Positions 19,012-39,940 of a DNA stretch of 64,000 nucleotides are shown in pieces. The stretch spans positions 744,001 through 808,000 of the forward strand of contig NZ_CP054918.1 in the NCBI RefSeq assembly GCF_013364195.1, read 5' to 3'. Origin of the DNA: Streptomyces sp. NA04227 (GTDB taxonomy: Bacteria; Actinomycetota; Actinomycetes; Streptomycetales; Streptomycetaceae). Under the pieces are notes generated by a model that had not been told where the DNA came from, ran no database searches, and saw only the letters and a program-made list of their open reading frames with translations. Position 1 is the first letter of the stretch. Every line of letters begins with the position of its first letter. The translations under genes were made by a program, and so were the position numbers.

Positions 19012-20304
19012 TCACCCCGGCCGAAGCCACTCCATGGCCGCCGTGACCATCGCCTCGACGCCTGTCGGCAGGGCGGTGCGTACGTCGACGCTGAAGCGGG
19101 GGCTGTGGTTCGAGGGCAGGGCCGCCATCTTCTCGGCCGCGGACGTACCGGGAGCACGGGCCCAGTCCGCCGCCCCGACCGCTCCCAGCATCCAGTAGGA
19201 CAGGGCGATCCCCCGTCGGCCGTGGACCTCGTGTCCCGCGTCGCCGTACAGGGCGAAGTCCTCGGTGGCCAGGCTCGGCGGCCACATCGCCACCCGTTCC
19301 GGGCCGAAGCGCCGGACGTGCGCCTCGCGCACCCGGGCCGTGGCCGCCGGGTCCGGATGCGTCGTCGGGGAGGCGGAGACCCGCTCGATGTCCGGCTCGC
19401 GCGGGCAGCCGGAGGCCGTGCACTCGGCGCGTATCACCCGCTCCACCGCGGCCGTGGCGCGGGCCAGCGACTCCGGCCCCACCGCCCGTACGGTGAGGCC
19501 GAGTTCGGCACTGTCGGGGATGATGCTCGCCCGCTGCCCGGCGTGGAAGGAACCCACCGTGACGGCGACCTGCTCGGAGGGAGCGCATTCGCGGGCCACC
19601 ACCCCCTGCACCCGGGTCACCACCGAGGCCGCCGCCAGGACCGGATCGACCGCGAGGTGCGGCGCCCCCGCGTGACCGCCCCTGCCGTGCACCACCACCC
19701 GCAAGGTGACGCTGCCCGCCGTCATCGGCCCGTAGGCGTGCGCCACCATGCCGCCGGGCAGCGGGGCGGTGTGCTGGGCGAGTACCGCGTCGGGCGGCGG
19801 GAAGCGGGTGTAGAGACCGTCGGCGAGTACCGCGCGGGCTCCTTCGAGGGTCTCCTCCGCCGGCTGGCCGAGCACCACGAGGGTGCCCCGCCAGGCCTGC
19901 CGCTGCCGTGCGAGGAGGGCCGCGGCACCCGCCACCGCGCTCAGGTGCAGGTCGTGCCCGCAGCTGTGCACGGCCGCGCACTGGCTCGCGTAGGGCAGAC
20001 CGGTCTCCTCGCGGCCCGGGAGGGCGTCGAGTTCGGCGCGGAGCAGCACGGTGGGGCCGGGGCCGTTCTCCAGTACGGCGACCACGCCGGTGCCACCGAC
20101 TCCCCCGGTGGTCTCCAGGTGCGCATCCTTCAGGAAGCTGGCGAACCGGTCGGCGGTGCGCTCCTCGGCGCCGGAGAGTTCGGGATGCCGGTGCACGTCC
20201 AGACAGAAGGCGGTCAGCGGACGCAGTACGGCTGCCAGGCCCCCGAGGACGGTCCCGTTCGCCTTCGTGGGTGCGGCTTCTGCGTTCATGGGGACATGGT
20301 CCAT
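19012..20304 (-). CDS. M20D-family amidohydrolase/peptidase at the edge of the peptide cluster
   Basis: A metal-dependent hydrolase of the hippurate/amino-acid amidohydrolase type (M20D), up to 430 residues. The metal site is visible in RAELDALPGREETG and VHSCGHDLHLSA. The conserved GQPAEE segment and a dimerisation lid (about residues 190-300) follow. Two starts are possible, ATG 20304 or ATG 20289 (MNAEAAPTKA); neither has a good ribosome binding site. It is divergent from the precursor gene, and both face the inverted repeat at 20328-20358, which suggests shared control. A role in leader removal or peptide tailoring, or in self-protection, is inference only. Confidence 0.85.
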   Translation of the reverse strand: MDHVPMNAEAAPTKANGTVLGGLAAVLRPLTAFCLDVHRHPELSGAEERTADRFASFLKDAHLETTGGVGGTGVVAVLENGPGPTVLLRAELDALPGREETGLPYASQCAAVHSCGHDLHLSAVAGAAALLARQRQAWRGTLVVLGQPAEETLEGARAVLADGLYTRFPPPDAVLAQHTAPLPGGMVAHAYGPMTAGSVTLRVVVHGRGGHAGAPHLAVDPVLAAASVVTRVQGVVARECAPSEQVAVTVGSFHAGQRASIIPDSAELGLTVRAVGPESLARATAAVERVIRAECTASGCPREPDIERVSASPTTHPDPAATARVREAHVRRFGPERVAMWPPSLATEDFALYGDAGHEVHGRRGIALSYWMLGAVGAADWARAPGTSAAEKMAALPSNHSPRFSVDVRTALPTGVEAMVTAAMEWLRPG

Positions 20305-20327
20305 GGCCGGACTCGGGAGCGGTACGG

Positions 20328-20362
20328 CACCTCACTGACACAAGGTGTCAGTGAGGTGTCAG
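20328..20362. promoter_or_regulatory. Perfect inverted repeat with SARP-type direct heptamers
   Basis: CACCTCACTGACAC (20328-20341) and GTGTCAGTGAGGTG (20345-20358) are perfect 14-bp inverted arms with a 3-bp spacer. On the plus strand the heptamer GTGTCAG occurs at 20345-20351 and again at 20356-20362, with 4 bases between (11-bp period). This is the spacing at which SARP regulators bind direct heptamers upstream of activated promoters. It lies 100 bases upstream of the precursor start and 24 bases upstream of the M20 gene. The SARP gene at 35569-37365 is the natural candidate ligand. Confidence 0.65.
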
Positions 20363-20461
20363 CGGCGCACCGGGCCTTCTGTCGGCCACCGGCGGTGGAA
20401 TGCGGGGGTGGCAGGACCGCCGGGAGACGCCCCGGCGGCCACTCGCACCCAAGGAGTCATC

Positions 20462-20635
20462 ATGGACAAGACGCCGCTGGCCTCCCTCGCGGACGAGATC
20501 CTGGAGCTGGAGTCGGAGACCTTCGAGATCTCGGACTACTCGGACGCCAGCGAGGTCGTGCTCGCCGGTTCGACGAGCTGCAGCTCGACCTCCACCTGCT
20601 CCTCCACCACCAGCACCACCTCCTGCAGCGCCTGA
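20462..20635 (+). CDS. RiPP precursor peptide (TOMM/thiopeptide-like), Ser/Thr/Cys core
   Basis: A 57-residue precursor with ATG at 20462 and AAGGAG five bases upstream. Residues 1-36 are an acidic leader (ten Asp/Glu against one Lys) with TFEISDYSDASEVVLAG, like thiopeptide and goadsporin-type leaders recognised by RRE domains. Residues 37-57 are the core: of 21 residues, 10 are Ser, 7 Thr, 3 Cys (positions 40, 46, 55) and only the last is Ala; the end reads SCSSTSTCSSTTSTTSCSA. Every core residue but one can thus be cyclised to an azol(in)e or dehydrated. The gene stands alone on the plus strand and is convergent with the enzyme genes. The exact leader/core boundary is inferred. Confidence 0.93.
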   Translation: MDKTPLASLADEILELESETFEISDYSDASEVVLAGSTSCSSTSTCSSTTSTTSCSA

Positions 20636-20660
20636 GCCTCACGGCTCACGTACGCAGCAC

Positions 20661-20701
20661 GTTCGCCCCGGCTCCCGTCGTCACGGGGAGCCGGGGCGAA
20701 C
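20661..20701. terminator. Strong bidirectional terminator between precursor gene and YcaO gene
   Basis: A 16 bp perfect stem (GTTCGCCCCGGCTCCC with GGGAGCCGGGGCGAAC) closes a 9-nt loop, followed on the plus strand by GCCCTTTTC. It lies 26 bases past the precursor stop and 30 bases before the end of the convergent YcaO gene, so it can end both transcripts. Confidence 0.88.
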
Positions 20702-20730
20702 GCCCTTTTCCGGTACGGGTGTTCAGTGCC

Positions 20731-22746
20731 TCACGGGAACGGGTGCGGCACCATGCGGATCTCCGCCTCGGTCAGGTCCGTCGGGCGCAGGCCGCCACGC
20801 CGGGCCGCGGTGCGAAGCCGCGGTAGGTACGGGGCCCGCTGCCGGGTCCAGCCGAAGTCGATCGGGAGCAGTCCCGGCACCAGCGCGCAGACGGTGTGCA
20901 GTTCCATCCCGAGCTGCTCGGGCGTGGTCTGGTCGACGACGATCACATCGTGACCGGCCGCCGCCAACTGGTCGACCACATAACGGAGTTCGTCCGCGAG
21001 GTCGCCGCTGCGCGGACGCTCACTCGTGTTCCAGTCGCCGTAGAGCTCGGCCATCGGGCGGCGTCGGGCCCGCAGGTAGGGCGCGACGTGTTCGGTCATC
21101 CGTGGCAGACCGTAGAGCTGTGCGTGGTCCTTGAGATGCTTGACCAGGGTGAAGTCCTCGGCCATGGCCTCCAGTTCGGCTCTGCGCTCGGCGACCTGGC
21201 CGGGCAGGTGCGGGATGTAGGTGAGCACCTCGGACAGGGCGGCCTCCAGCGCGGCCACCGGGTCCAGGGCCGCGCCCGCGCCGAAGGAGTACGTACCCGG
21301 GCCGCCGTCCCTGCGCACCGCGAGCCCCGTCACGACCGGGACGGACAGGTCGATGCGGTTGTCGAAGGCGTGGACGTCGTAGCCCTGCAGGGCGGCGCGG
21401 TCGGTCATCATGCGCACTGCCGCCGAGTCCACCGTGGCGAGATCGATCTCCGGCAGGGTCAGGCCGCTGTACCAGGCGGCCAGGAAGGCGTCCCGCTCGA
21501 TGAGTTCGAGCAGGGCGCCGAGCGTGGCCTCCTCGCGACAGCTCCCGATGGCGCAGCCGTTGGAGCACTCGAAGACGAAGTTGTCGGCGGCCAGACCCGC
21601 GCTGTAGTGGACCAGGCGGGCGGGTACCAGGACCGGGCGCGCGTCGCGCAGCGAGTGGCCGTGCACCCAGGGGATGGGGCGGGCCGGGTCGAAGGGCGAG
21701 ACCATGGGGTCGGTGCGATAGGTCTCGGGCGCGTAGAAGCCGCAGGTGGCGGGGTCCAGCGCGCGCTCGCCCAGTTCCTCGTAGGAGGCGGTGAGCAGGG
21801 TGCTGCCGGTACGGCGGTGGGTGCCCGCGTAGCGTTCCAGGCCCTCCAGGAAGGCGAGGTCGCGGCTGTGCCGGAAGCTGTTCGCCTGACCGCTCCAGGT
21901 GACGTCGGTCAGTCCCGCGTAGCCCCGCATGAAGACGCTGCCCGCGACGGGCGCGGTGGTCGGCGAGGTGACATTGATCCAGGTGCCGCCGCCGAGCACC
22001 CCGGTCACGGGGTTGGCCAGCGCCTCGGTCGGCAGCGGGAAGGAGGCCGCGGGGCGCAGCCGGGCGCTGTCCGGGGAGGGTTTCGGGCGGGGTTCGGGTA
22101 CGAAACGCGCCGCCTCGGCGGTGTCGCTGCCGCGCGGACCGCAGTACGGACACAGGGGGTCGGCGAGCAGCGGTGAGGTCCGGACGCCGAGGGTGGCCAG
22201 GTCGAGGCGGGAGATCTGCGGCAGCCGTCGGTCCGCCTCGGCCGGGCCGCCGGGCGCCGGGGCCGGGCCGCCGAGGACTGCGGTGTGCAGGGCGAGGGCC
22301 GCGTCGAGGTGATGTGCGGTCAGGTGGGGCGAGTCGGCCGAGACGGGGGTGGCCTTGGTGGCGGGGCCCGAACCGGTCTCCAGCGCGTCGCGTTCGCTGC
22401 GCGAGCGCAGCCGCTGCCAGCGCATGGCGAGACACTGGCCGCAGGCCGGTGTGCTGCCGTCGCCTCCCCAGGGACCGATCAGTACGGCCTGGGCGGTGAG
22501 GTGGACGGTGGCCGCCTGGCGTACGGGAGCGAAGGGGTCGTCCGCGCGGGAGCCGAGGGCGTCGTGCACGCCGACGGTGACCACCGCCGGGGGGCGGGTT
22601 CCGTCCGGCGCGGCGGCGGCCAGTGCCTGCTGGAGGATGCGGCGGGCCGCTTCCATGGCGGTGCCTTCGGACGCCTGGACCGGGGTGTCGTGGCGGGCGG
22701 GCTCCGGCGCGGGGGCGGGGGCCGGGGCCGGGAGTCCGGCTGTCAT
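20731..22746 (-). CDS. YcaO-domain azoline-forming cyclodehydratase (copy 1)
   Basis: A 671-residue TOMM cyclodehydratase. Residues about 30-260 are an N-terminal region with two CxxC pairs (Cys102/105 and Cys199/202), probably a zinc site as in leader-handling docking domains. Residues about 270-671 are the YcaO domain, which activates the peptide backbone with ATP to make thiazolines or oxazolines. ATP-site segments include SNGCAIGSCREEATLGALLELIERDAF and GAGAALDPVAALEAALSE. The C-terminus ends MVPHPFP, the proline-rich tail important in TOMM YcaO proteins. The ATG at 22746 overlaps the permease stop (ATGA) and has GGAG 9 nt upstream. It is the last gene of the minus-strand set. Confidence 0.92.
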   Translation of the reverse strand: MTAGLPAPAPAPAPEPARHDTPVQASEGTAMEAARRILQQALAAAAPDGTRPPAVVTVGVHDALGSRADDPFAPVRQAATVHLTAQAVLIGPWGGDGSTPACGQCLAMRWQRLRSRSERDALETGSGPATKATPVSADSPHLTAHHLDAALALHTAVLGGPAPAPGGPAEADRRLPQISRLDLATLGVRTSPLLADPLCPYCGPRGSDTAEAARFVPEPRPKPSPDSARLRPAASFPLPTEALANPVTGVLGGGTWINVTSPTTAPVAGSVFMRGYAGLTDVTWSGQANSFRHSRDLAFLEGLERYAGTHRRTGSTLLTASYEELGERALDPATCGFYAPETYRTDPMVSPFDPARPIPWVHGHSLRDARPVLVPARLVHYSAGLAADNFVFECSNGCAIGSCREEATLGALLELIERDAFLAAWYSGLTLPEIDLATVDSAAVRMMTDRAALQGYDVHAFDNRIDLSVPVVTGLAVRRDGGPGTYSFGAGAALDPVAALEAALSEVLTYIPHLPGQVAERRAELEAMAEDFTLVKHLKDHAQLYGLPRMTEHVAPYLRARRRPMAELYGDWNTSERPRSGDLADELRYVVDQLAAAGHDVIVVDQTTPEQLGMELHTVCALVPGLLPIDFGWTRQRAPYLPRLRTAARRGGLRPTDLTEAEIRMVPHPFP

Positions 22747-23498
22747 GTGCGGTTGCTCCATCGGAAGACCTTGAGTCCCAGGGCGCCGAAGACCACCGCG
22801 AAACCGAGCAGCACGGCACAGTCGACGCCGATGTCGGCGAGGCCGCCCTCCCCGGTCAGGCTCGCGGAGGCGGCGTCGTTGAAGTAGTAGAGCGGCAGGG
22901 CCTTGGCCACCGCCTGGAGCCAGGACGGCATCATGTCGATCGGCAGGAAGGAGCCGGACAGGAACGCCATCGGCACCATCAGGCAGTTGGCCATCGCGGC
23001 GACCGCCTCGGGGGTGTCGGCGCGGGAGCCGATCACCACGCCGATGGCGAGGAAGGCGGTGATGCCGAGGACGAGTACCGGCAGTGTCAGTGGCCACTGG
23101 GCGTCGAGCGAGAGACCGAACGGCGGCAGCATCGCGACGGCCACGAAGAAGACCGACTGCACCAGGCCGATGCCGACGGCCAGCGTGTAGCGCGAGCCGA
23201 GCACACTGCCGAGCGAGGTCGGGGTGAGCCGGATCAGGCGCAGCAGGTCGTCGCGCCGCCACTGCATGAGGGTGAAGCCGATCCCGAAGACGGCGGCGTT
23301 GGCCACTCCCCAGGACATCACCCCGGGGGCGATGTAGGAGATGTAGCTGCGGCCGGTCTCCTCCAGTTCCTGGTCGCTGAAGATCAGGCCGAAGACGACC
23401 AGGAAGATCAGCGGGAAGGCGAAGGTGAAGAACAGGGTCGCCTTGTCGCGCACCGCCGCCCGGTGGCCGGCCGCGGTCAGTGCCGTGTACGCGCTCAT
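22743..23498 (-). CDS. ABC transporter permease (peptide/drug export type)
   Basis: A 251-residue ABC-2-type permease with six predicted membrane segments. These include ATLFFTFAFPLIFLVVFGLIF near the N-terminus, a central pair around GIGLVQSVFFVAVAML and LPVLVLGITAFLAIGVVIG, and a last helix before the KVFRWSNRT tail. It partners the ATPase whose gene it overlaps by 4 nt (ATG at 23498, ATGA). Position inside the cluster points to export of the mature peptide and self-resistance. Confidence 0.92.
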   Translation of the reverse strand: MSAYTALTAAGHRAAVRDKATLFFTFAFPLIFLVVFGLIFSDQELEETGRSYISYIAPGVMSWGVANAAVFGIGFTLMQWRRDDLLRLIRLTPTSLGSVLGSRYTLAVGIGLVQSVFFVAVAMLPPFGLSLDAQWPLTLPVLVLGITAFLAIGVVIGSRADTPEAVAAMANCLMVPMAFLSGSFLPIDMMPSWLQAVAKALPLYYFNDAASASLTGEGGLADIGVDCAVLLGFAVVFGALGLKVFRWSNRT

Positions 23499-24481
23499 GC
23501 CTGCTGCTCCCTGGTGTGCGATCGCGGGTGCGTGCCCTCGGCACCGGCGTCGCCGGTGAGTTCGAGGTAGACGTCCTCCAGCGTGGCCGTACGGGTCATC
23601 ACCTGGTCGAGGCCGGTCAAGGCGTCGAGGGCCTGAAGTACCTTGCCGGGAACGGTGGTTTCCAGGACCAGGGAGCCGCCCTGGACGGTGGCGCGCTCGA
23701 CGCCCTCGATGGCCGCCGCCTCCGCCACGGCGAGGCGGTCGGCGGGGAGCATCAGGCGTGCGGGCGCGCCCGCGGCGCTGACCAGACGGTGCGGGGAGTC
23801 CAGGGCCCGTATCCGGCCGGCCACCAGGATGGCGACCCGGTCGCAGAGCGCCTCGGCCTCGTCGAGGTGGTGGGTGGTGTAGACGATGGTGCGGCCCTGC
23901 TCCTTGAGCGTGCGCAGGACCTCCCACAGATCGCGGCGGGCCTGGGGGTCGAGGGCGGCGGTGGGTTCGTCGAGGAAGATCAGCTCCGGTCCGTGGACCA
24001 GTGCGGAGGCGATGGCCAGGCGCTGGCGCTGGCCCCCGGAGAGGTTCTCGACCAGGACGTCGCGCTGTTCCTCCAGGCCGACGGTGGCCAGCGCCCGCTC
24101 GGCCGCGGCCCGGTCGGCGCGGTAGAGGGCGGCCACGGTGACGAGGTGTTCGGCGGCGGTCTGGCGCACGAAGAAGGCCGAGGACTGGGTCTGCACGCCC
24201 ATCCGCGGCAGCAGCGCGGTGTTGCGGGGCCAGGGTGCGTGGCCGAGCACGGTGACGCTGCCGGAGTCGGGGCGGCGCAGGCCCTCCATGATTTCCACCA
24301 GGGTGGTCTTGCCCGCGCCGTTGGGGCCGAGCAGCCCGAAGAACTCGCCGCGCCCGACCGTGAGGGACACCCGGTCGAGAGCCGGGCGGTCCTGGTACTG
24401 CTTGCTGATCTCGTGCACGGAGATCGCCGCTTCGCCGCCCGCCGGCGGTTTTGGCGGCTGGTTCCTGGCGGAAGCTGTCAT
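23495..24481 (-). CDS. ABC transporter ATP-binding protein
   Basis: A 328-residue ATPase of the DrrA/CcmA-like export class. Walker A is GPNGAGKTT at residues 52-60, the signature is LSGGQRQRL, Walker B is LIFLDEP, and an H-loop lies in YTTHHLDEAEALCD. The C-terminal 90 residues are the extension common in drug-export ATPases. The ATG at 24481 follows the M50 gene by 59 bases; the frame extends upstream, but the family alignment starts here. It pairs with the permease gene downstream. Confidence 0.94.
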   Translation of the reverse strand: MTASARNQPPKPPAGGEAAISVHEISKQYQDRPALDRVSLTVGRGEFFGLLGPNGAGKTTLVEIMEGLRRPDSGSVTVLGHAPWPRNTALLPRMGVQTQSSAFFVRQTAAEHLVTVAALYRADRAAAERALATVGLEEQRDVLVENLSGGQRQRLAIASALVHGPELIFLDEPTAALDPQARRDLWEVLRTLKEQGRTIVYTTHHLDEAEALCDRVAILVAGRIRALDSPHRLVSAAGAPARLMLPADRLAVAEAAAIEGVERATVQGGSLVLETTVPGKVLQALDALTGLDQVMTRTATLEDVYLELTGDAGAEGTHPRSHTREQQA

Positions 24482-24540
24482 GGCGTTGTGCCCCTCGGTG
24501 TGGTTCGGTTCGTGGCGCGGGGTTGGGACTGGGTCACGGG

Positions 24541-25653
24541 TCAGCGGGTGGTGAGGAAGGCCCAGACGGCTAGTAAGGCGCCGGTGAGCAGACCAAGGAC
24601 GAGCAGTGCGGAGCCGGTGCCGTAGGCGGTGTACAGCCTGCGGGCGCGCGGCGGGTAGGCCTCGGCCCGGGGGCGGTCGCGCAGCCACAGCCTCATGTAC
24701 TCGCCGCTGCCCGGGGCGAGCCGGGTGACGCGCAGGGCGTGGCCGAGCATCGTGTAGCCGTCCAGTGGCGGCAGCGGCACCAGGTTGACGAGTGCCTGCA
24801 CGCTTCCGGCGAGCAGCAGTACGGAGAGGACCTTGCGGGTGGAGTCGTCCGCGAGCAGTCCCCACCACGCCCAGAACGGCAGCAGGAAGAGCAGGTTGGC
24901 GAAGGCGCCGGCCAGGGCGACCGCCAGTTGCTGCCTGCGCCTGCTCAGATAGCGGTAGTTCTCGACGGTGCAGTACATGATCGCGGCCGGCAGTCGCCAG
25001 CGAAGACCGATCTCCCCCACGGTGCCGCCGACATGGCGGGCGGCGATGCCGTGGGCCAGTTCGTGCAGGGCGGTGCTCAGCCAGAGCAGGGTGGCGACGG
25101 CGACCAGGGGCACCGGCCGGTGCAGCAGCCACCAGGTGTCGTCGGCCAGGGCCGGTACGTCCAGGGCGAGCACCACTTCCATGGCCAGGCACAGGACGAC
25201 CAACGGCACCAGTACGACGGGGTGCAGCAGCGGACGCAGCAGGCGGTGCAGCCGGGCCGTGGTGGCGTCGGCGTCGGCGACGAGGCGCACGCTGCCCTTG
25301 CCGAGGGTGCCGGTCACCGCCCGTGCGGAACGCTCGGGCGGTGACGGCAGCGGGCCGCCCGCAAGCAGGTGACGGCTGCCGAGCAGGCCGAGCAACTGCT
25401 GCCAGTTGGCCTCGCCGAGGCGACGGTTGAAGGCGCGGCCGTACTCGGTGCCGATCTCGGCCAGGGTGCGGTGGCCGTCGAGGCGGGAGACCAGGAAGTA
25501 CTCCTTGGGTCCGATCTCGAAGGCGGTGCCCGTCACCGGGTCCTTGACGAGGTGGACCGTGGCCGCGCCGCTGAGCAGCGGCGGGGACAAAAGAATGCCG
25601 TCCCGCAGCGCGGGCCGGTGGCCGAGGAGCCCGCCGGGTTCCGTGCGGGTCAC
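24541..25653 (-). CDS. M50-type membrane metalloprotease with PqqD/RRE-like N-terminal domain
   Basis: A 370-residue protein. Residues about 28-100 look like a PqqD/RiPP-recognition-element fold (VHLVKDPVTGTAFEIGPKEY, then a helical stretch ending GLLGSRHLL). Membrane helices follow from about residue 143. The zinc-binding HExxH is His197-Glu-Leu-Ala-His201 in STALHELAHGIAARH. The third M50 ligand is Asp298 in NLVPLPPLDGY. Protease function at the membrane, with the N-terminal domain able to hold the leader, makes it the leading candidate for leader cleavage coupled to export. This is inference. GTG start at 25653 overlaps the upstream stop codon (GTGA). Confidence 0.85.
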   Translation of the reverse strand: MTRTEPGGLLGHRPALRDGILLSPPLLSGAATVHLVKDPVTGTAFEIGPKEYFLVSRLDGHRTLAEIGTEYGRAFNRRLGEANWQQLLGLLGSRHLLAGGPLPSPPERSARAVTGTLGKGSVRLVADADATTARLHRLLRPLLHPVVLVPLVVLCLAMEVVLALDVPALADDTWWLLHRPVPLVAVATLLWLSTALHELAHGIAARHVGGTVGEIGLRWRLPAAIMYCTVENYRYLSRRRQQLAVALAGAFANLLFLLPFWAWWGLLADDSTRKVLSVLLLAGSVQALVNLVPLPPLDGYTMLGHALRVTRLAPGSGEYMRLWLRDRPRAEAYPPRARRLYTAYGTGSALLVLGLLTGALLAVWAFLTTR

Positions 25654-29551: not shown

Positions 29552-29561
29552 CGTCATCCTC

Positions 29562-31154
29562 TCAGGCGATCTCGTGACGGAAGTCGGCGGGGCGCGGGCG
29601 TTCGTTGCCGAGCGGCATGATCAGCAGCGGCGCCTCGTCCCCGTCGTCGAGTCCGAGTTCCTCGATGTAGGAGATGTTGTCGAAGCCGAGCGCCACACCC
29701 GCGCCGAGGCCGAGCGCCGAGGCGGCGGTGTAGAAGGTCTGGGCGATGGCCCCGACGGTGCCGTTGACCAGGCGGTAGCCCCGGTCCCCCACCGCGTCCA
29801 GGACGGCGCGGGTGCGGACGGTGGGCACCAGGACGGCGCCCGCCTGTTCCAGGTTGTAGTTCGCCAGGAAGTAGTTGCGCTGGAGGAAGGAACCGGGCGC
29901 CCCGGGCACCACCAGCTTCAGGGCGTGTGCCGCGGGGTCGTAGGCGTAGGCCCCCGGTGCGATGCCCTCGACGTGATTGACGAAGGCGTAGAGCGTCGCG
30001 AGCCCGGGGCCCTTTGGTGTCTCCGCCTCGCTGCCCAGGCCGGTACGGGCGCAGGCGGCGAGGGTGGTCGCGAGCTGGGTCGCGGTCAGCGGCCTGCTCG
30101 CCTCGAAGCGGCCGAAGCTGCTGCGGCGCTCGCGCAGCGCCCGGCTCACCGACACCTCGGGAAACTTCGGTGCGGGCAGCGGGTGCGCGCCCTCGCCCCG
30201 GGCGGGCAGGGCCGCGGCGGCGGCCAGCGCACCGGGCGCGGGACGTGCGGTGGCCTCGGCGGCGGTGGCCCGGTGGATGCGGCGCAGGGTCTCGAAGGTG
30301 AGGACGGTACGTGAGGCCTCCACGTCCCGGTGCCGGACGGCGGCGGCGGGCCGGGTGGCGGCGGCGGTGACCGGCGCCCGCTCCCAGCGCAACGGAACGA
30401 CCGCGAAGATCCCCTCCTCCTCGCTCGGCACGCCGAGCAGCCGGGCGAGGCGCTCCTCGTCGAACCAGAGCGCGGGGGCGATGCGCAGCCCGAGCGGCCG
30501 GGCCCACAGCCGCCAGGTCCCGAGGAGCGCGCCCACGTCCATGCTGACGGCGTGGAAGGAGAAGGAGTTGTACTTGAAGGCGTTCTGCCAGTACTTCACG
30601 CCGAGGATCAGGAACTGGTCGGTCCGCGCCGCGTCGGTGTCCTCGCCGAGGGCGCCCCTGACCTCGGAGGTCACGTCCCCGGTGAGCAGTCTGCGCAGGC
30701 CGTGCAGCGGCGGGGCGTAGTGGTGCAGCCCGGGTGCGAGCGGCCCGCTGGGACCGGCCGCCCAGTACACGCTCACCGGGTAGAGGCCACCGCCGGATGC
30801 CGTGCCGCGCGAGAAGTTGGCGTGCGTCCAGTGCGGCAGTGCGGACAGGTCCGTGTTGGCCTGTACGCCGAGGCGGCGGCCGACGAGCCCGTAGGAGTCC
30901 TGGAGCATGCCCGCGAGGAGCGGCAGGGTGAAGGCCGCGGTGGCCTCGGTGTCCGGCGCGGTGGGCAGGCAGGCGGCGGCGATGTCCGCCGCCTGAGCCT
31001 CCGCGGGCCGTCCGGGCAGCGGGTAGGTCTCGGTGCCCGGGTAGAACTTGCTCTTGCGGGGGCGGTCGGCCCAGTCGGGCACGAAGTCCACGGGTTCCAT
31101 CGGGACCCGGCCGCGCCACAGGATGTCCTTGGCGTAGTCATGGGCGTAACCCAC
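29562..31154 (-). CDS. SagB-type azoline dehydrogenase (nitroreductase family)
   Basis: A 530-residue FMN-dependent dehydrogenase that oxidises azolines to aromatic thiazoles and oxazoles in TOMM pathways. The protein shows two nitroreductase-like halves. The first (about 1-260) contains SGGGLYPVSVYW and a D-x-G-A-L-L-G-T-W segment. The second (about 320-530) contains RERRSSFGRF, NGTVGAIAQTFYTAASALGLG and a C-terminal PLLIMPLGN strand. GTG start at 31154 with AAGGAGG five bases upstream. The LanB glutamylation gene follows closely. Confidence 0.92.
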   Translation of the reverse strand: MGYAHDYAKDILWRGRVPMEPVDFVPDWADRPRKSKFYPGTETYPLPGRPAEAQAADIAAACLPTAPDTEATAAFTLPLLAGMLQDSYGLVGRRLGVQANTDLSALPHWTHANFSRGTASGGGLYPVSVYWAAGPSGPLAPGLHHYAPPLHGLRRLLTGDVTSEVRGALGEDTDAARTDQFLILGVKYWQNAFKYNSFSFHAVSMDVGALLGTWRLWARPLGLRIAPALWFDEERLARLLGVPSEEEGIFAVVPLRWERAPVTAAATRPAAAVRHRDVEASRTVLTFETLRRIHRATAAEATARPAPGALAAAAALPARGEGAHPLPAPKFPEVSVSRALRERRSSFGRFEASRPLTATQLATTLAACARTGLGSEAETPKGPGLATLYAFVNHVEGIAPGAYAYDPAAHALKLVVPGAPGSFLQRNYFLANYNLEQAGAVLVPTVRTRAVLDAVGDRGYRLVNGTVGAIAQTFYTAASALGLGAGVALGFDNISYIEELGLDDGDEAPLLIMPLGNERPRPADFRHEIA

Positions 31155-31199
31155 GGGGTCCTCCTTTCAACGGGCACGAGCGGTACGAGGATGGAGAGC

Positions 31200-33209
31200 T
31201 CAGGGGAAGGGGTGCGGGGCCGGGTTGAGGTCCTCGGGCAGCAGCTCCCGGTCCCTCAGGCCCGCGGTGTGCAGTGCGGTCCGCATCCGTGGCAGATGCC
31301 GGGCGCGCTGCCGTGACCAGCCGAAGTCGATGGGCAGCAGGCCGGGTACCAGGACCGAGACGGTGTGCAGGCCAAGGCGCCGCTGTTCCGGCAGGGTCTG
31401 GTCGACCAGGACCACGTCGAAGCCGGCGGCGGCCACCGCCGCGACACAGCGCGCGAGGTTCTCACCGAGGTCGGTGGCAGCCGTGGCGCCCTCGGTGTCG
31501 GGCCAGGCGAGCTCGCCCACCTTCCGCTGCTCTGGCCCGGTCGCGGGCCCGCGCAGCAGGAAGTCGGCGTACTGCCCCATCTCCGGGATTCCGTAGACCA
31601 GGGGGTGGTCGTGCAGGGCGGTGATCAGGTCGAAGTCCTCGGCCATGGCGCGCAGTCGGGCCTCGTCGCCCTCGGTCCGCTCGCGCAGGTTCACCGCGTC
31701 GGTGGCGATCTCGCAGAGCGCGGAGGCCAGTGCCTCCTCCGGGTCCAGACCCGCGCCCGCGCCGAAGCACATCCGCCCGAGGCCCCCGTCGAAGCGCTCG
31801 GCGACGGCGGTCACCACCGGCACCGGAAAGCCGAGGCGGGTGTCGAAGAAGCGTGCCCGGTAGCCGTACATGGCGAGCCGGTCGACCATGGCCCGGGTGC
31901 CCGTACGGGTACTGCTCGTCACGTCGATCTCGGGCAGCGGCTGCTGTCCGTACCAGGTGAGCAGGAAGGCGTCCCGCTCGATGACCTCCATCAGTCCGAA
32001 GTACGCGGCCTCGGCCCAACTGCCGCCGGAGGCACAGCCGTTGGAGCTCTCCTGTACGAAGCGGTTCTCCAGGCCCGGTGCGTGGTAGTACGTGAGGATC
32101 TCCGGCACGAGGCGCGGCTCGGCGTCCCGCAGCGACCAGCCCCAGACCCACGGGATCTCCCGGTCCGCGGCGAAGGGCCGCACCCGCGGGTTGGCCGCGT
32201 AGAACTCCGGTGCGTACAGGCCGACTCGGCGCGGGTCGACGGCGAGTTCGCCGAAGGAGTCGAGGCTGCCGCGCACCGTGACCCTCCGGCTGCGCGAGCG
32301 CATCCCGGCGTACCGTTCGAGCCCTTCCAGAATCCCGACCCGGGCGCTGCGCGCGAAGGAATCGGTGTGCCCGCCCCAGAAGGTCTCCCGCAGGTAGGCG
32401 CCCGAACGCATCGAGAAGCAGCCGATGGTGGCCGAGGTGGAGGCGGAGGAGATGTCCTGCACCAGGGAGGGCCCGAGCGCCCCGCACACCGGGTTGGCGA
32501 AGGCCGCCACGGGCAGCTCGTAGGACTCCAGGGCCCGGGTGCGAAAGCTGCCCGGCCGGTGCTCGGGCGCGGGCGCGAAGTCCGGCCGGGCCCGCTCCGC
32601 GGTGTCCTCCTGGGGGCTGCCGCAGTGCGGGCACTCCGGATCCGGTACGAACGGATGCCCGCGCACGGAGAACGTCGCCAGGTCCAGGAGCCACACCTGG
32701 GCGAAGGCACCCTCGGGCGGTACGCGTCGTGCGACCGCCGTGGCGAGCCCCGCGAGCGCACCGGCCGCGAGCGGGGTGGCGAACGGCCACTGGCCGGTGG
32801 CCCGGGTGCCGCCGCCGAGTTCCAGCGCGTCCCGCAGAGCGAAGGAACGCACCGCCTGCCAGCGCCGCTGAAGGCAGCGGGCGCAGCCGGGTGCCTCCTT
32901 CGCCGGTACGGGTCCCACGACGGCGTGCCGTCCGTAGAGCCCGACCGGCAGCACGGCGGGGGCGGGGGCTTCGCCCAGCACGCCGGGTGCGGGGGCTTCC
33001 CGGTCTCCGTCGGCGGGGCGGACGACGAGCGGGGCCTGTTCCCGCGTCGCGGATCCGGCGAAGGCGTCCTCGAACCCCAGGGCGGACAGGCGCAGTTCGG
33101 GCCCGTCGAGTGCGGCCAGAGCGCGGGCCAGCTCGTCCGCGAAGCCGCTCAGGTCACCGAGTCGCGCCGTCCCCGTGGGCTCCGGCGTCTGCCGGGTGGG
33201 CGCGCTCAC
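31200..33209 (-). CDS. YcaO-domain azoline-forming cyclodehydratase (copy 2)
   Basis: A 669-residue protein with the same plan as the YcaO encoded at 20731-22746. The N-terminal region carries two CxxC pairs (Cys109/112 and Cys193/196), and a YcaO domain follows from about residue 250 with SNGCASGGSWAEAAYFGLMEVIERDAF and GAGAGLDPEEALASALCE. The C-terminus is NPAPHPFP. Both copies keep the ATP-site acidic residues and the proline tail, so both look active. The pair may divide Cys from Ser/Thr, or early from late rings; that is inference. GTG start at 33209, 43 bases after the ThiF-like gene. Confidence 0.92.
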   Translation of the reverse strand: MSAPTRQTPEPTGTARLGDLSGFADELARALAALDGPELRLSALGFEDAFAGSATREQAPLVVRPADGDREAPAPGVLGEAPAPAVLPVGLYGRHAVVGPVPAKEAPGCARCLQRRWQAVRSFALRDALELGGGTRATGQWPFATPLAAGALAGLATAVARRVPPEGAFAQVWLLDLATFSVRGHPFVPDPECPHCGSPQEDTAERARPDFAPAPEHRPGSFRTRALESYELPVAAFANPVCGALGPSLVQDISSASTSATIGCFSMRSGAYLRETFWGGHTDSFARSARVGILEGLERYAGMRSRSRRVTVRGSLDSFGELAVDPRRVGLYAPEFYAANPRVRPFAADREIPWVWGWSLRDAEPRLVPEILTYYHAPGLENRFVQESSNGCASGGSWAEAAYFGLMEVIERDAFLLTWYGQQPLPEIDVTSSTRTGTRAMVDRLAMYGYRARFFDTRLGFPVPVVTAVAERFDGGLGRMCFGAGAGLDPEEALASALCEIATDAVNLRERTEGDEARLRAMAEDFDLITALHDHPLVYGIPEMGQYADFLLRGPATGPEQRKVGELAWPDTEGATAATDLGENLARCVAAVAAAGFDVVLVDQTLPEQRRLGLHTVSVLVPGLLPIDFGWSRQRARHLPRMRTALHTAGLRDRELLPEDLNPAPHPFP

Positions 33210-33252
33210 CGGGCCGGTCCGGTTTCCCGCTCGGGGAGGTGGTGGCGGGCCG

Positions 33253-35463
33253 TCACCGGGGGTCCTCCTTGGTGAGCAGCACGCGTGCGGTGTGGATGCC
33301 TGCGGCCGCCAGATCGGCGGCGCCGGTCGGGACCAGGAAGGCGTCGCGCCCGGCCGCCCGGAGCCGGTCGAGCACGTCGCTCCAGGGGACGGACGCGGGG
33401 GCGGCGGCCGGGTCCGCCGTGCCGGTCACGGTCAGCGCACGGGCGTCGAGGTCGCGCAGCAGCGGGTCCCCGGTGTCGGTCGGCCTGCCCGTCTCCTCGC
33501 GCTCGTACTGCACCGCGCCGAGCAGGTCGCGCAGGGCGGCGACGGCGGCGCCCCGGCGGCTGGTCTCGCTGCCGACGGCCCAGTGCGCGCCGTGCCGGGC
33601 GAGGAGCACACTCACGCCGGTGCGGCTCTGCTCACCCAGGTCGAGGAGTTCGACCGGCACGCCGAGCCGGTCCGCGGACCTGACCAGGAAGAGGAGTTCG
33701 GCGTCGGTGCCGGGCGCTTCGTCCTCGGCGGTGGCCGCGGGCAGCGGAACGGCAGCGGCGGCCTCGCCCCGCACGGCGCGCAGCAGGGCGTCGTGGGCGA
33801 GTGCGGAGAGCAACCCGCGGGCGGCGGCGTCGGCGGCCGAGGGCCCTGCGCCGGTGCCCGCGCTGCTGCGCTCGAAGCAGCGGTCGGTGTTGTGCGGCCC
33901 GAACGGACGCACCGCACCCGCCGGGACCAGGACCGTCTCCTTGGTCAGCAGCGAGAGCGCGGGCAGGCAGGGCGGCGTGCCCTCGGCGGGCAGCCCGCTG
34001 GCGAGGACCAGGGCGTCCGCGCCGATCCGCGCCGGTGCCGCGGTGCCCGGCCGCGCCTCGGTCTCCTCGACCAGGCCGCGGGCCGGTACCACGTGCTCGG
34101 CGTAGACACGGGCGGCGGCGTCCAGGGCGCGCAGCCTGGCTCCCGCGACATGGTGGACGTCGAAGGCCGTGACGGTACGGGCCGGGGCGTGGCCCAGGCC
34201 CAGTTCGACCGCGCTGATCTTCAACGGGATCTGGGTCAGCGGCTCGTCGGCGAAGCGGCGGAAGACACCCGCACGTGGACGGACGAGCAGCGAACGGGAG
34301 TTGAGCTCCTCGACGGCCGCCTCCACCTCGGCTGCGGTGGCCGGTGCGGACGCGCCCTCCGCCACGGCCGCCGTGCCGAGGTCGGCCTCGGCCGGCTGCG
34401 GCTGCTCGGCACACCGCGGGCAGCGCGGGTGCGGCAGCAGCACTTCGGTGCTCACGTCCAGGGACTCCATGTCCTGGACGACGATCTGTCCCTCGGTCTC
34501 CTGCGGCAGCGCGCCCGAGGTGAGCCGGAAGACCTCGTAGCCGAGAAGGTTGCCGGTCATCGCGGCCAGCGGGCGGCCCGGGGTGGCTCCGCCGGGCGCG
34601 GAGCCCGGCAGGGCGAGCGAGCTCCACAGGTCCGCGGCGGCGCCGCGGTCCCCGTTCGATCCGAGCCTGAGGGCAGCGCAGGACCAACAGCCCCTGCTGC
34701 CCCGGGCCATCAACGGCCCCACCACCAGGTCATCGCCGAACGGCCAGGCGGCCACCAGGCGTTGGCCCTCGGGCAGGCCCGCCGCGAGCAGCGCAGTGAC
34801 CAGGGCGGGCGCCCCGGGGCCGGTGGCGAGGACCACGTCCCAGCCGTCGAGCCGGGACCCGGCCGGTGCGAGTGCGTCCTCGGGCAGCGGCAGCACCTCG
34901 ACCGGGCAGCCGTCGGCCGCGGCCTCGGCGGCGTCCTCGCGCCAGGCACCGCTGTCGTGACCGGGGCTCACGCCCACGGTGCCGCAGCCGTTGCGGATCA
35001 GGCCGCGCACCGCCCAGTCGGCGATCGGGTCCGTACCGAGCACGGCGACCCGGGTGCCGCGGAACCGGGCGAAACGCTCCTCGGGCCGGTCCGCGTAGTG
35101 GTCGATGTAGGCGATCTGCGGCGCGAAGCGGCGGGCCACGTCCTCGGGGAGCGCCGCCTCGGCCGCCTGCGGCCCGGGGGCGGGGACGTCGCGGGCGAAG
35201 TCCCGTTCGTAGAGCGTCCTGACGAGTTCGCCCACCATCGCGCGCTGTGCCTCGCCGAGCCCGTTGCACAGTTCGGCCACGGAGTTCTCGCCGGTCAGGT
35301 GCGGGACGAGGAGGGTGGCGAAGCGGTAGGCCGATTTGGCGTTGAGCCGGAATCCGCCGTCGGCGTTGTGGAAGAGCACTCCGTCCGGGGTCTCGGTGAA
35401 GAGCACGTCCCGGCGGATGCGCGGCCGGGTCGCGGCGACGGCTTCGTAGCTGGCTGAGGCCAT
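33253..35463 (-). CDS. ThiF/E1-like TOMM cyclodehydratase partner with N-terminal RRE
   Basis: A 736-residue protein of the Ocin-ThiF-like group that presents the leader peptide to YcaO. Residues about 17-92 (RDVLFTETPDGVLFHNADGG onward) resemble a PqqD-like RiPP recognition element. Residues about 135-320 hold a Rossmann E1-like domain (TRVAVLGTDPIADWAVRGLI) whose glycine loop departs from GxGxxG, as in partners that do not adenylate. Cys pairs in SRGCWSCAALRLG and HPRCPRCAEQ may bind zinc. ATG at 35463 with AGGGGG 7 bases upstream. It is the first enzyme gene after the regulator. Confidence 0.88.
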   Translation of the reverse strand: MASASYEAVAATRPRIRRDVLFTETPDGVLFHNADGGFRLNAKSAYRFATLLVPHLTGENSVAELCNGLGEAQRAMVGELVRTLYERDFARDVPAPGPQAAEAALPEDVARRFAPQIAYIDHYADRPEERFARFRGTRVAVLGTDPIADWAVRGLIRNGCGTVGVSPGHDSGAWREDAAEAAADGCPVEVLPLPEDALAPAGSRLDGWDVVLATGPGAPALVTALLAAGLPEGQRLVAAWPFGDDLVVGPLMARGSRGCWSCAALRLGSNGDRGAAADLWSSLALPGSAPGGATPGRPLAAMTGNLLGYEVFRLTSGALPQETEGQIVVQDMESLDVSTEVLLPHPRCPRCAEQPQPAEADLGTAAVAEGASAPATAAEVEAAVEELNSRSLLVRPRAGVFRRFADEPLTQIPLKISAVELGLGHAPARTVTAFDVHHVAGARLRALDAAARVYAEHVVPARGLVEETEARPGTAAPARIGADALVLASGLPAEGTPPCLPALSLLTKETVLVPAGAVRPFGPHNTDRCFERSSAGTGAGPSAADAAARGLLSALAHDALLRAVRGEAAAAVPLPAATAEDEAPGTDAELLFLVRSADRLGVPVELLDLGEQSRTGVSVLLARHGAHWAVGSETSRRGAAVAALRDLLGAVQYEREETGRPTDTGDPLLRDLDARALTVTGTADPAAAPASVPWSDVLDRLRAAGRDAFLVPTGAADLAAAGIHTARVLLTKEDPR

Positions 35464-35551
35464 GAGTGGACCCCCTGTGGGCGGTTCGGAGCGGATCGGG
35501 GCAGGCGTTGCGGTGGTGCGGTGGGCGCCGGGGACAGACGCGCGGCGGTAG

Positions 35552-35566
35552 CCGGGGAGCCCCCGG
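35552..35566. terminator. Weak hairpin between the SARP gene and the ThiF-like gene
   Basis: CCGGGG and CCCCGG form a 6 bp stem with a 3-nt loop just after the SARP stop codon. It could reduce but is unlikely to stop read-through into the enzyme genes. Confidence 0.3.
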
Positions 35567-35568
35567 TC

Positions 35569-37365
35569 TCAGTGCGGGACGGCGGCCGGTTCCGCGGACT
35601 TCGCGCGGTGCCGCCAACGCGCGTAAACCTGGAGGAAGGCATGCATGCGGTAGGGGCCGGGCGAGCCGTCCTCGAGCAGCCCCGCCTCGACGAGCCGCTC
35701 CAGCACGGCCTCGGCGTCACCGAAGTCCTTCGGCACATCGGCAGGGCGCAACGCTCCCGCGTCCTCGCGCGCCCCGAGGTGGAGGAAGGCCTCCCGCGCC
35801 ACGGGGTCCAGGGCTTCGAGCGCCGCCCCGAGTACGGCGGGCACGGACAGCCGCGGGTCCTCGGCGAGCGAAAGCCGCGCGGGTGGGCTCTCGGCGAGCC
35901 AGTCCGCGCAGGCGGCCACCGTCAGTCCCGGCCGGGTGAGCAGCCGGGCCGCGGCGATCCGCAGCGCGAGCGGGAAGTGGCCGCACAGCGCGGCGAGCCG
36001 GGCGGCGGCCTGCGGCTCGGCCGCGAACCGTGCCGCCCCGAGCAGCGCTTCGAGCAGGCCCAGCGCGTCCTCGGCGGGCAGTACGTCGAGCCGGTGGACG
36101 GCGCCGCCGTGGGTGGCGACCACCGCGGCGAGATGCTGTCGGCTGGTGAGGATCACGGCCGCCTCACCGGGGGCGGGCAGCAGGGGCCGCACCTGCCAGC
36201 CGCTCGCCACGTCGTCGAGGATCAGCAGCATGCGGCCGCCGGCCGGGTCGGGCGGCGGCAGCTGCGCCGCGGCCTCCGCACTGGTCACCGCGGAGCCGTC
36301 GGGCCGTGCCATGGGCAGGACGTGCACCCCGCCGGGGAAGGAGCCCTGCACCTCGTGCGCGGTCTGCAGGGCGAGAGCGGTCTTGCCGATGCCGGGCGCC
36401 CCGGAGACGACGACCAGTGCCTGGTCCCCGTCGCGGGACAGCAGCCGCTCTGCCATCTCCTCGCGCTCGCGGCGCCGTCCGGTGAATCCGGGTACGGGCC
36501 GCAGGGCGGGGGCGCTCGTCGGTACGGGGGCGGTGGTTCCGCGGGCCTCTTGCGCGCCCGGTGACGGGGACGGCCCGGCGGCCAGGGCGAGCGGGGCGGG
36601 TACCGGGGTGCGGCGCCCGGATGCGGGTCCGAGGTCCTCGGCGCGGAGGATGGACAGCTCCAGACGCTGGAGGCCGGAGCCCGGGTCGATGCCGAGCTCT
36701 TCGTGGAGCCGGGACTTGACGATGCGGTACTCGGCGAGGGCCTCCGCCTGCCTGCCCGTGCGGTAGAGCGCCTCGATGAGCTGCTCGGCGAAGCGTTCGC
36801 GCCCGGGGTGCTTGCGGGTCTCCTCCCAGAGGTCGACGAGGACCTGCCCGCACTGTCCTGCGGCGAGCTCCAGGTCACAGACGCGTTCGAGGACCCGCAG
36901 CCGTTCCTCGACCAGTCCGGGGAGCGCATCGCGGTGCAGCATCCGGGAGGCGACGTTGGCGAGCAGGGGTCCCTGCCAGAGCGCGAGCGCCTGTCGGAGG
37001 CGGTAGAGCTCCGTCTCCTCGTCGGTCCCGTCCTGGACGGAGGTCAGGCCGCGGAAGCGCACCAGGTCGAGGGTTTCCCCGGTGGCGCGCATGCGGTAGC
37101 CGCCGGCAACGGACTCGATCATGGTGCCGTCGATGCCGTACTTGGTGAAGATCCGCCGCAGCCGCAGGACACAGGTCTGCAGGGCGGCACGTGCCGTTGC
37201 CGGTTGCTCCTCGTCCCACAGGGCTCGCAGCAGATAGCCGGTGGACACGACCGAGTTGGGATGCAGCAGCAGTGCCGCGAGCAGGCTGGTGGGCTTGGAG
37301 GGCTTCAGTACCGCGACTTCTTCACCGTTCGCGATACTGAGCGGGCCTAGCAGCTCGAACCGCAT
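35569..37365 (-). CDS. SARP-family pathway activator (BTAD + NB-ARC)
   Basis: A 598-residue Streptomyces antibiotic regulatory protein. Residues 1 to about 95 are an OmpR-type winged helix (MRFELLGPLSIANGEEVAVL). Residues about 97-245 are the BTAD domain. Residues about 290-598 are an NB-ARC-type ATPase module with Walker A GAPGIGKT at 322-329 and Walker B MLLILDDV; it lacks a large TPR tail. The ATG at 37365 has GGAG 8 bases upstream; longer frames have no support. It heads the minus-strand gene set, 105 bases before the ThiF-like gene, and is expected to activate the cluster, for instance through the direct heptamers at 20345-20362. Confidence 0.92.
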   Translation of the reverse strand: MRFELLGPLSIANGEEVAVLKPSKPTSLLAALLLHPNSVVSTGYLLRALWDEEQPATARAALQTCVLRLRRIFTKYGIDGTMIESVAGGYRMRATGETLDLVRFRGLTSVQDGTDEETELYRLRQALALWQGPLLANVASRMLHRDALPGLVEERLRVLERVCDLELAAGQCGQVLVDLWEETRKHPGRERFAEQLIEALYRTGRQAEALAEYRIVKSRLHEELGIDPGSGLQRLELSILRAEDLGPASGRRTPVPAPLALAAGPSPSPGAQEARGTTAPVPTSAPALRPVPGFTGRRREREEMAERLLSRDGDQALVVVSGAPGIGKTALALQTAHEVQGSFPGGVHVLPMARPDGSAVTSAEAAAQLPPPDPAGGRMLLILDDVASGWQVRPLLPAPGEAAVILTSRQHLAAVVATHGGAVHRLDVLPAEDALGLLEALLGAARFAAEPQAAARLAALCGHFPLALRIAAARLLTRPGLTVAACADWLAESPPARLSLAEDPRLSVPAVLGAALEALDPVAREAFLHLGAREDAGALRPADVPKDFGDAEAVLERLVEAGLLEDGSPGPYRMHAFLQVYARWRHRAKSAEPAAVPH

Positions 37366-38274: not shown

Positions 38275-39940
<1,666 letters not shown>

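Follow-up and report, generated by a model that had tools for sequence, protein, structure and literature searches.

A RiPP cluster of Streptomyces sp. NA04227 with the genes for a probably linear azole- and dehydroamino-acid-containing peptide and a near-constant core

The genome of Streptomyces sp. NA04227 comprises 7.89 Mb in a single contig (G000, C1). The window analyzed here, a stretch of 64 kb (C1:744001-808000) to which all positions refer unless another contig coordinate is given, holds a complete gene cluster for a ribosomally synthesized and post-translationally modified peptide (RiPP) at 19012-37365. The cluster probably encodes an entire pathway for a linear peptide carrying several azoles together with dehydroamino acids. 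Three lines of evidence bear on this reading: the enzyme set, a precursor core composed almost solely of serine, threonine and cysteine, and the position of the only LanB C-terminal protein of the genome outside the pyridine synthases of thiopeptides.

Gene content of the cluster

The part list of a preliminary description of this DNA (one precursor, two YcaO proteins, a ThiF/E1-like protein with RRE, a SagB dehydrogenase, a split LanB, an RRE-like M50 protease, an ABC exporter, a SARP regulator and an M20 protein) is borne out by domain matches, each at its expected place. The minus-strand genes are transcribed in the order SARP, F protein, YcaO_b, SagB, LanB-N, LanB-C, M50, ABC ATPase, ABC permease, YcaO_a and M20; between the last two, in plus orientation, lies the precursor gene, which has a 157-bp divergent region in common with M20. 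All reading frames are open, and the end coordinate first given for the cluster, 37365, is the ATG of the SARP gene.

35569..37365, minus: SARP regulator (winged helix, BTAD and NB-ARC-type ATPase domains), probably activating the cluster; Pfam BTAD 115 bits, Trans_reg_C 38, NB-ARC 43; 5' of F in 79/80 related loci
33253..35463, minus: F protein, with N-terminal leader-binding (RRE) region, E1/ThiF-like middle and degenerate YcaO C-terminus; TIGR03693 70 bits, TIGR03882 63 bits, PF02624 43 bits
31200..33209, minus: YcaO_b, fused cyclodehydratase with truncated C part; PF02624 273 bits, TIGR03604 303 bits
29562..31154, minus: SagB-type azoline dehydrogenase dependent on flavin mononucleotide; TIGR03605 144.7 bits (cut-off 78.4), PF00881
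26714..29557, minus: LanB N-terminal part (LanB-N), tRNA-dependent glutamylation protein; PF04738 126.5 bits
25650..26714, minus: LanB C-terminal part (LanB-C), most likely glutamate elimination protein; PF14028 143 bits, tree, profile scores and motifs
24541..25653, minus: M50 intramembrane metalloprotease whose N-terminus is RRE-like, probably the leader protease; PF02163 40 bits, NF041824 107 bits
23495..24481, minus: ABC exporter ATPase, DrrA-like; PF00005 108 bits
22743..23498, minus: ABC-2 exporter permease; PF01061 91 bits
20731..22746, minus: YcaO_a, second fused cyclodehydratase (predicted start); PF02624 279 bits, TIGR03604 333 bits
20462..20635, plus: precursor; TIGR03892 49.5 bits, near-invariant in relatives
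20328..20362, plus: operator-like element in the M20/precursor divergent region; palindrome and 11-bp-spaced direct repeats
19012..20304, minus: M20 amidohydrolase/carboxypeptidase-type metallopeptidase, possibly a trimming enzyme; PF01546 79.5 bits, TIGR01891 236 bits (cut-off 154)

A precursor with a nearly unchanging core

The precursor consists of a 36-residue leader, MDKTPLASLADEILELESETFEISDYSDASEVVLAG, and a 21-residue core, STSCSSTSTCSSTTSTTSCSA, made up almost solely of serine, threonine and cysteine; the change in composition suggests a border after LAG (leader end ...EVVLAG). The calculated [M+H]+ of the core before modification is 1976.737. The precursor scores above the cut-offs of TIGR03892 (49.5 bits against 25) and NF033400 (41 bits against 30), and a Pfam scan of three precursors matched no family, though the protein database assigns PF19409 to many relatives. 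No precursor candidate occurs on the operon strand near 31200, 35500 or 37500, the real gene being on the opposite strand at 20462.

Among 92 precursor entries of the family (some species being represented twice), 50 carry exactly the core of NA04227, and only nine core types occur in all. In the 79 genes that are distinct in DNA across 39 compared residues, 15 of the 21 core positions are invariant, and all 56 replacements at the remaining ones (positions 1, 2, 4, 10, 14 and 20) stay within serine, threonine and cysteine. Both AGY and TCN codons are found at eight core serine positions, seven of these invariant; the nucleotides have thus been exchanged with the residue retained. The constancy is not limited to the core, the adjoining stretch of the leader being likewise conserved, and median pairwise identities of the aligned pathway enzymes are 54-69% (the two YcaO sets being mixed in this alignment). 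A nonsynonymous/synonymous ratio (0.58 in the core, 0.21 in the leader) was set aside, as AGY/TCN serine switches are counted as nonsynonymous and the ratio reaches 0.31 even among 43 genes of identical core.

Beyond this subfamily the core is more variable: in the wider precursor protein set the exact core is present in 21 of 121 cluster representatives at 90% identity (query included), among them Catenulispora and Actinocrinis, and the stretch TCSSTTSTTSC in 85 of the 121. The interchangeable positions are presumably those converted by the YcaO proteins.

Some genomes have two or three precursor copies within one cluster (L141 in G096, L193 in G217), and the two precursors compared in L193 differ at core position 4 alone (T or C). 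Loci of other actinobacterial genera (L275, L276, L278, L280-L282 and L292; G760, G538, G620, G540, G597, G622 and G629) carry three or four precursors each, with an ETFE- or TFE-type leader and differing, almost all-S/T/C cores; these are apparently sister families of the present cluster.

Azole-forming proteins

The YcaO proteins YcaO_a and YcaO_b are 44% identical, and in both a shortened C part is fused to the D part; YcaO_b has TruD and LynD as relatives and aligns with TruD from TruD residue 268. Both retain the LEGLER, ERDAF, DQT-PEQ and PHPFP stretches (LEGLERYAG in YcaO_b), which are the catalytic motifs of YcaO. The F protein matches the E1-like model TIGR03882 (63 bits, cut-off 36.9) and, far under the cut-off of 561.9, the ocin-ThiF-like model TIGR03693 (70 bits), and its C-terminus is a weakly matching YcaO-like domain (PF02624, 43 bits) that lacks the catalytic glutamates and the PHPFP tail in the alignment. 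Since these motifs are kept in YcaO_a and YcaO_b and lost in F, the former two appear to be active and the latter to serve as a scaffold. SagB has weak relatives in the PDB, CyaGox and McbC. Outside the window the genome encodes another YcaO protein (G000:C1:4283132-4284238; L003, L005), which shares about 36% identity with YcaO_a.

LanB proteins and the nature of the product

The best solved relative of LanB-N is 6ec7 ('Lantibiotic dehydratase domain protein', 108 bits), which we take to be TbtB, followed by 9jhq ('Goadsporin biosynthetic protein', 52 bits). LanB-C is most likely the partner that eliminates glutamate, as suggested by its motifs, profile scores and phylogeny. The stretches HVRLR, KYGG and HMTNNRL align with the C-terminal part of 5ehk, presumably MibB, and are kept in 60/67, 66/67 and 65/67 LanB-C rows, with mostly conservative variants as exceptions; LanB-C retains the YGG motif and the second Arg of HxRxR, neither of which is present in the aligned TbtD. 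Pyridine synthases scoring above the cut-off of NF045556 (325 bits) occur in only 8 of 394 genomes of the class, 10 proteins in total, and at all 10 places a second SpaB_C gene adjoins the synthase. A LanB-C profile (best domain) gives these neighbors 95-166 bits (nine at 130-166, one at 95) and the synthases 31-106. In a 37-row tree a branch (100/99) sets the 10 synthases apart from all other rows; the 10 neighbors make up a second group (99/97), and the LanB-C family and its relatives a third (95/98). Midpoint rooting groups the neighbors with the LanB-C family. LanB-C thus appears to lie outside the pyridine synthases.

No second SpaB_C-type gene is found in the whole genome: PF14028 (E <= 0.001) and NF045556 (E <= 1e-20) match LanB-C alone, the latter below its cut-off. 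Correspondingly, no [4+2] pyridine synthase of the TbtD/PbtD type, the enzyme that defines thiopeptides, was recognized in the cluster or the genome by PF14028, NF045556 or the tree. Because the lone LanB-C falls outside the pyridine synthases and no other candidate was recognized in the genome, a linear, goadsporin-like product is most likely, not a thiopeptide. The preliminary description had left the product as linear or macrocyclic; the first half of that alternative is now favored and the second is not.

Several observations weigh against elimination by LanB-C and a linear product. TbtD is the best PDB match of LanB-C taken alone (41.6 bits) and comes first again with a profile, NF045556 scores 100.6 bits against 87 with the general model, and the YGG motif is preceded by Lys in LanB-C and by Arg in 5ehk. 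Moreover, the tree is unrooted and by itself no proof of elimination, and the synthase neighbors are called eliminases from their position alone. A true thiopeptide, whose pyridine macrocycle would be closed from two dehydroalanines (Dha) by LanB-C (alone or bifunctional) or by an unrecognized enzyme, would also agree with the database name of the precursor, 'thiazolylpeptide-type bacteriocin', with its matches to TIGR03892 and NF033400, and with the closeness of LanB-N to a thiopeptide-type enzyme. Even so we regard it as unlikely, and pyridine synthesis by LanB-C was rejected as improbable: the motifs set LanB-C apart from TbtD, PF14028 and NF045556 match no other gene of the genome, the profile scores bring its family closer to the synthases' neighbors than to the synthases, and the tree places it outside the synthase clade.

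Still less probable is a thioether cross-linked product, in which leftover cysteines would add to Dha or dehydrobutyrine (Dhb) without a LanC cyclase. The core has three cysteines amid many serines and threonines, dehydration enzymes are encoded and Cys19 is invariant; yet no LanC family is matched among the scanned cluster proteins, two intact YcaO proteins and SagB are present, and other species have serine or threonine in place of Cys4 and Cys10, an exchange compatible with an azole but not with a thioether donor.

Proposed pathway to a linear peptide

The linear azole- and Dha-containing peptide would arise by the following route, for which gene identities, motifs, conservation, the repeats and the lack of a recognizable pyridine synthase are read from the sequence, and each reaction and its order from the established roles of the families. 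The SARP would activate the precursor gene through repeats spaced by 11 bp, and the leader-binding region of F would present the core to the two intact, truncated YcaO proteins, which would convert some of the cysteines, serines and threonines to azolines, to be oxidized to azoles by SagB. LanB-N would then glutamylate further serines and threonines using Glu-tRNA, and LanB-C would eliminate the glutamate to leave Dha and Dhb. The leader would be cut off near ...VVLAG by the RRE-like M50 protease and the peptide exported by the ABC-2 pair, while M20 might trim one end, perhaps the constant C-terminal Ala. Azoles at core positions 1, 2, 4, 10, 14 and 20, where cysteine, serine and threonine interchange, and at position 19 are speculative, as is trimming by M20. 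That the enzyme set provides for both azole formation and tRNA-dependent dehydration had been proposed from the letters of this DNA alone, and the domain matches support it.

Protease, exporter and M20

The M50 protein matches the daptide protease model NF041824 (107 bits, below the cut-off of 300) and keeps HE-AH and PP-DGY in 15/15 rows. Pfam finds no family in the N-terminal fragment of either M50 or F. In a profile comparison the first 110 residues of M50 are matched to the first 105 of F (85%, E 6e-6), and none of seven further segment pairs exceeds 0.5%; the M50 N-terminus may thus be RRE-like, a likeness drawn from this one comparison.

In M20, CGHD, EETL and a late NH are conserved in 21/21 rows. 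In 27 relatives drawn from genomes having the precursor, M20 stands at the cluster end in all 20 with the precursor there (19 of them with YcaO_a) and in all seven with the precursor before SARP, so that M20 as a mere neighbor is rejected. In Streptomyces physcomitrii (G061; L145 and L025) some 20 kb in contig coordinates separate the precursor and M20 from the remaining operon, and YcaO_a is not seen beside them, possibly owing to an insertion within the cluster. No immunity gene was recognized in the cluster of NA04227.

Repeats before the precursor

The divergent region contains a perfect palindrome with 14-bp arms (20328-20358), overlapped by the direct repeats TGTCAGTG-agg-TGTCAG, 11 bp apart, at 20346-20362. 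A strict form of the motif, TGNCAGNR-N3-TGNCAG with an 11-bp repeat spacing, is present a single time in the 64-kb window. It stands before the precursor start in 59 of 90 distinct 200-bp regions, where 200 base shuffles gave 0.005 on average and never more than 1, and in none of 67 regions (400 bp) before SARP or 73 regions (150 bp) before F. With one mismatch allowed, 74 of the 90 precursor promoters match (shuffled mean 0.68), and about a third of the promoters have a third repeat 23 bp further on. Classical SARP sites have repeats every 11 bp, as stated in the passage concerned of PMC5930380.

The precursor-promoter repeats are therefore predicted to be of the SARP-operator type. Against this stand the promoters lacking them, 31/90 for the strict and 16/90 for the relaxed motif, and the nature of the counts, which come from related sequences and are not independent, the shuffles preserving base composition only.

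Distribution and genomic position

With F as query, 80 of 95 relatives in named genomes were kept as related loci (78 in Streptomyces, one in Kitasatospora and one in Sphaerimonospora). Gene order is unbroken in all 80 as far as the loci reach, with SARP in 79, YcaO_b in 72 and LanB-C in 66, the others ending at or near contig ends. TIGR03892 matches in 37 of 38 searched genomes of related loci, and the 30 of 41 matches examined all belong to this precursor family. This conservation in relatives excludes chance as the origin of the arrangement. LanB-C (E <= 1e-60) is present in 68 of 392 genomes of the genus Streptomyces, including that of NA04227, in 64 of them at >=62% identity and in four (G036, G150, G213 and G360) at 38-51% only; TIGR03892 matches occur in 84 of the 392, other precursor families included. 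The LanB-C of Sphaerimonospora nests among Streptomyces rows (97/95), which points to transfer.

The precursor has 147 homologous proteins; among the 120 listed, most named ones are 'thiazolylpeptide-type bacteriocin' and a few are 'lantibiotic' or hypothetical, and the genera include Streptomyces, Kitasatospora, Catenulispora, Actinocrinis, Actinokineospora, Micromonospora, Nonomuraea and Yimella. An isolated new cluster is thus not supported; it belongs to a widespread family whose precursor had already been given a name in annotation, and its occurrence in so many related genomes likewise rejects a rare one-off. Carriage on plasmids was also dismissed, just three distant YcaO matches (33-40% identity) being found there.

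In one genome LanB-C is matched in two overlapping pieces that suggest a broken copy (G233:C1:4451693-4452753). More distant copies in genomes of the genus (L266 in G365, 57% identical and additional to a normal copy; L270 in G036, 51%) have different S/T/C-rich precursors nearby (L289, L222).

The core and leader strings appear in no paper of the open-licence PMC collection searched, and no product of the cluster was found in print there. Sponge-derived relatives of S. albus J1074 have a 'thiopeptide-lantipeptide' cluster in common according to a passage of PMC4018334; that cluster may be the present one.

The placement of the cluster between housekeeping genes, as given in the preliminary description, is confirmed, with aroC-aroK-aroB on one side (aroB at 38275-39372) and on the other a Pro-rich P-loop gene (17748-18725), then an M24 peptidase and elongation factor P (EF-P). 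aroB and the P-loop gene are neighbors on the same strand, within about 1.2 kb, in 19 of 23 other genomes of the genus with the aroB locus, and two of the remaining four stop at a contig edge. None of these flanking genes is seen within about 19 kb (from inside F to about 4 kb beyond M20) in the clusters of four close relatives, and the P-loop gene, M24 peptidase and aroB were seen in none of the regions of 20 relatives with the precursor at the cluster end; the neighbors of the cluster therefore differ between species.

That the cluster is silent or decaying and at present yields nothing in this strain could be suspected from its place at a site where relatives have aroB and the P-loop gene adjacent and from the lack of a product in the papers searched, but is very improbable given the open reading frames, the constrained core in relatives, and the presence of regulator and repeats.

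Comparison with known systems

The precursor core fits none of the classes described in the literature compared, as had been anticipated. In goadsporin biosynthesis (god cluster of Streptomyces sp. TP-A0584), a YcaO protein and a dehydrogenase form azoles and the LanB N- and C-terminal homologs GodF and GodG in-chain Dha, as described in the relevant part of PMC5303826. The present cluster has the same hallmark of linear azole- and Dha-containing peptides: YcaO, dehydrogenase and split LanB without a pyridine synthase. It differs in having two YcaO proteins with a separate F protein, an all-S/T/C core, an M50 protease in place of the peptidase-ABC protein GodB, no match to a GNAT acetyltransferase (GodH) among its scanned proteins, and a LanB-N closer to 6ec7 than to the goadsporin protein of the PDB (108 against 52 bits).

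With thiopeptides it has in common the precursor model TIGR03892, an F protein with truncated fused YcaO, SagB and split LanB, but no pyridine synthase is recognized, and the core is almost only serine, threonine and cysteine and hardly diversified in this subfamily. Bottromycin pathways use stand-alone YcaO proteins and a C-terminal follower peptide, in contrast with the C-D fusions, F protein and S/T/C core C-terminal to an acidic leader found here.

Coryneazolisins, described in one part of PMC4603692 as an uncharacterized class of Corynebacterium, combine a pair of D (YcaO) proteins with LanB-like dehydratases and a core with long C/S/T stretches, and have no [4+2] protein. By that description their architecture agrees with the present cluster, apart from an Ile-interrupted core and one discrete D protein. 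Dehydrazoles (carnazolamide) are alike in product idea, with many azoles and Dha in one S/T/C-rich core, yet according to the section of PMC10676384 on them their dehydration is due to a DUF4135 LanM-type protein and their leader is nitrile-hydratase-like; a DUF4135 LanM-bC dehydratase is not matched among the scanned proteins of the present cluster.

Meaning of the constant core

Goadsporin and thiopeptide products are already known; the novelty here lies in an unfamiliar combination of familiar enzymes and in an unusually constant core. A cluster filed as 'thiopeptide' through the name of its precursor can evidently be without the enzyme by which thiopeptides are defined. The cores of RiPPs commonly differ from one species to another, and the constancy found here, together with the lack of a recognized immunity gene, argues mildly against an ordinary diversifying antibiotic. 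Tentatively, the product may be an old, nearly unchanging actinobacterial molecule, a linear 21-residue peptide with as many as 20 residues convertible to azoles or dehydroamino acids, which different genera have retained and which has changed genomic sites without drift of its core, and directed at a conserved target. If so, it would act as a signal, a developmental factor or a metal binder. Core swaps confined to residues that YcaO or LanB can modify, and a near-constant core despite enzyme identities of 54-69%, raise the question of which conserved target needs exactly this peptide.

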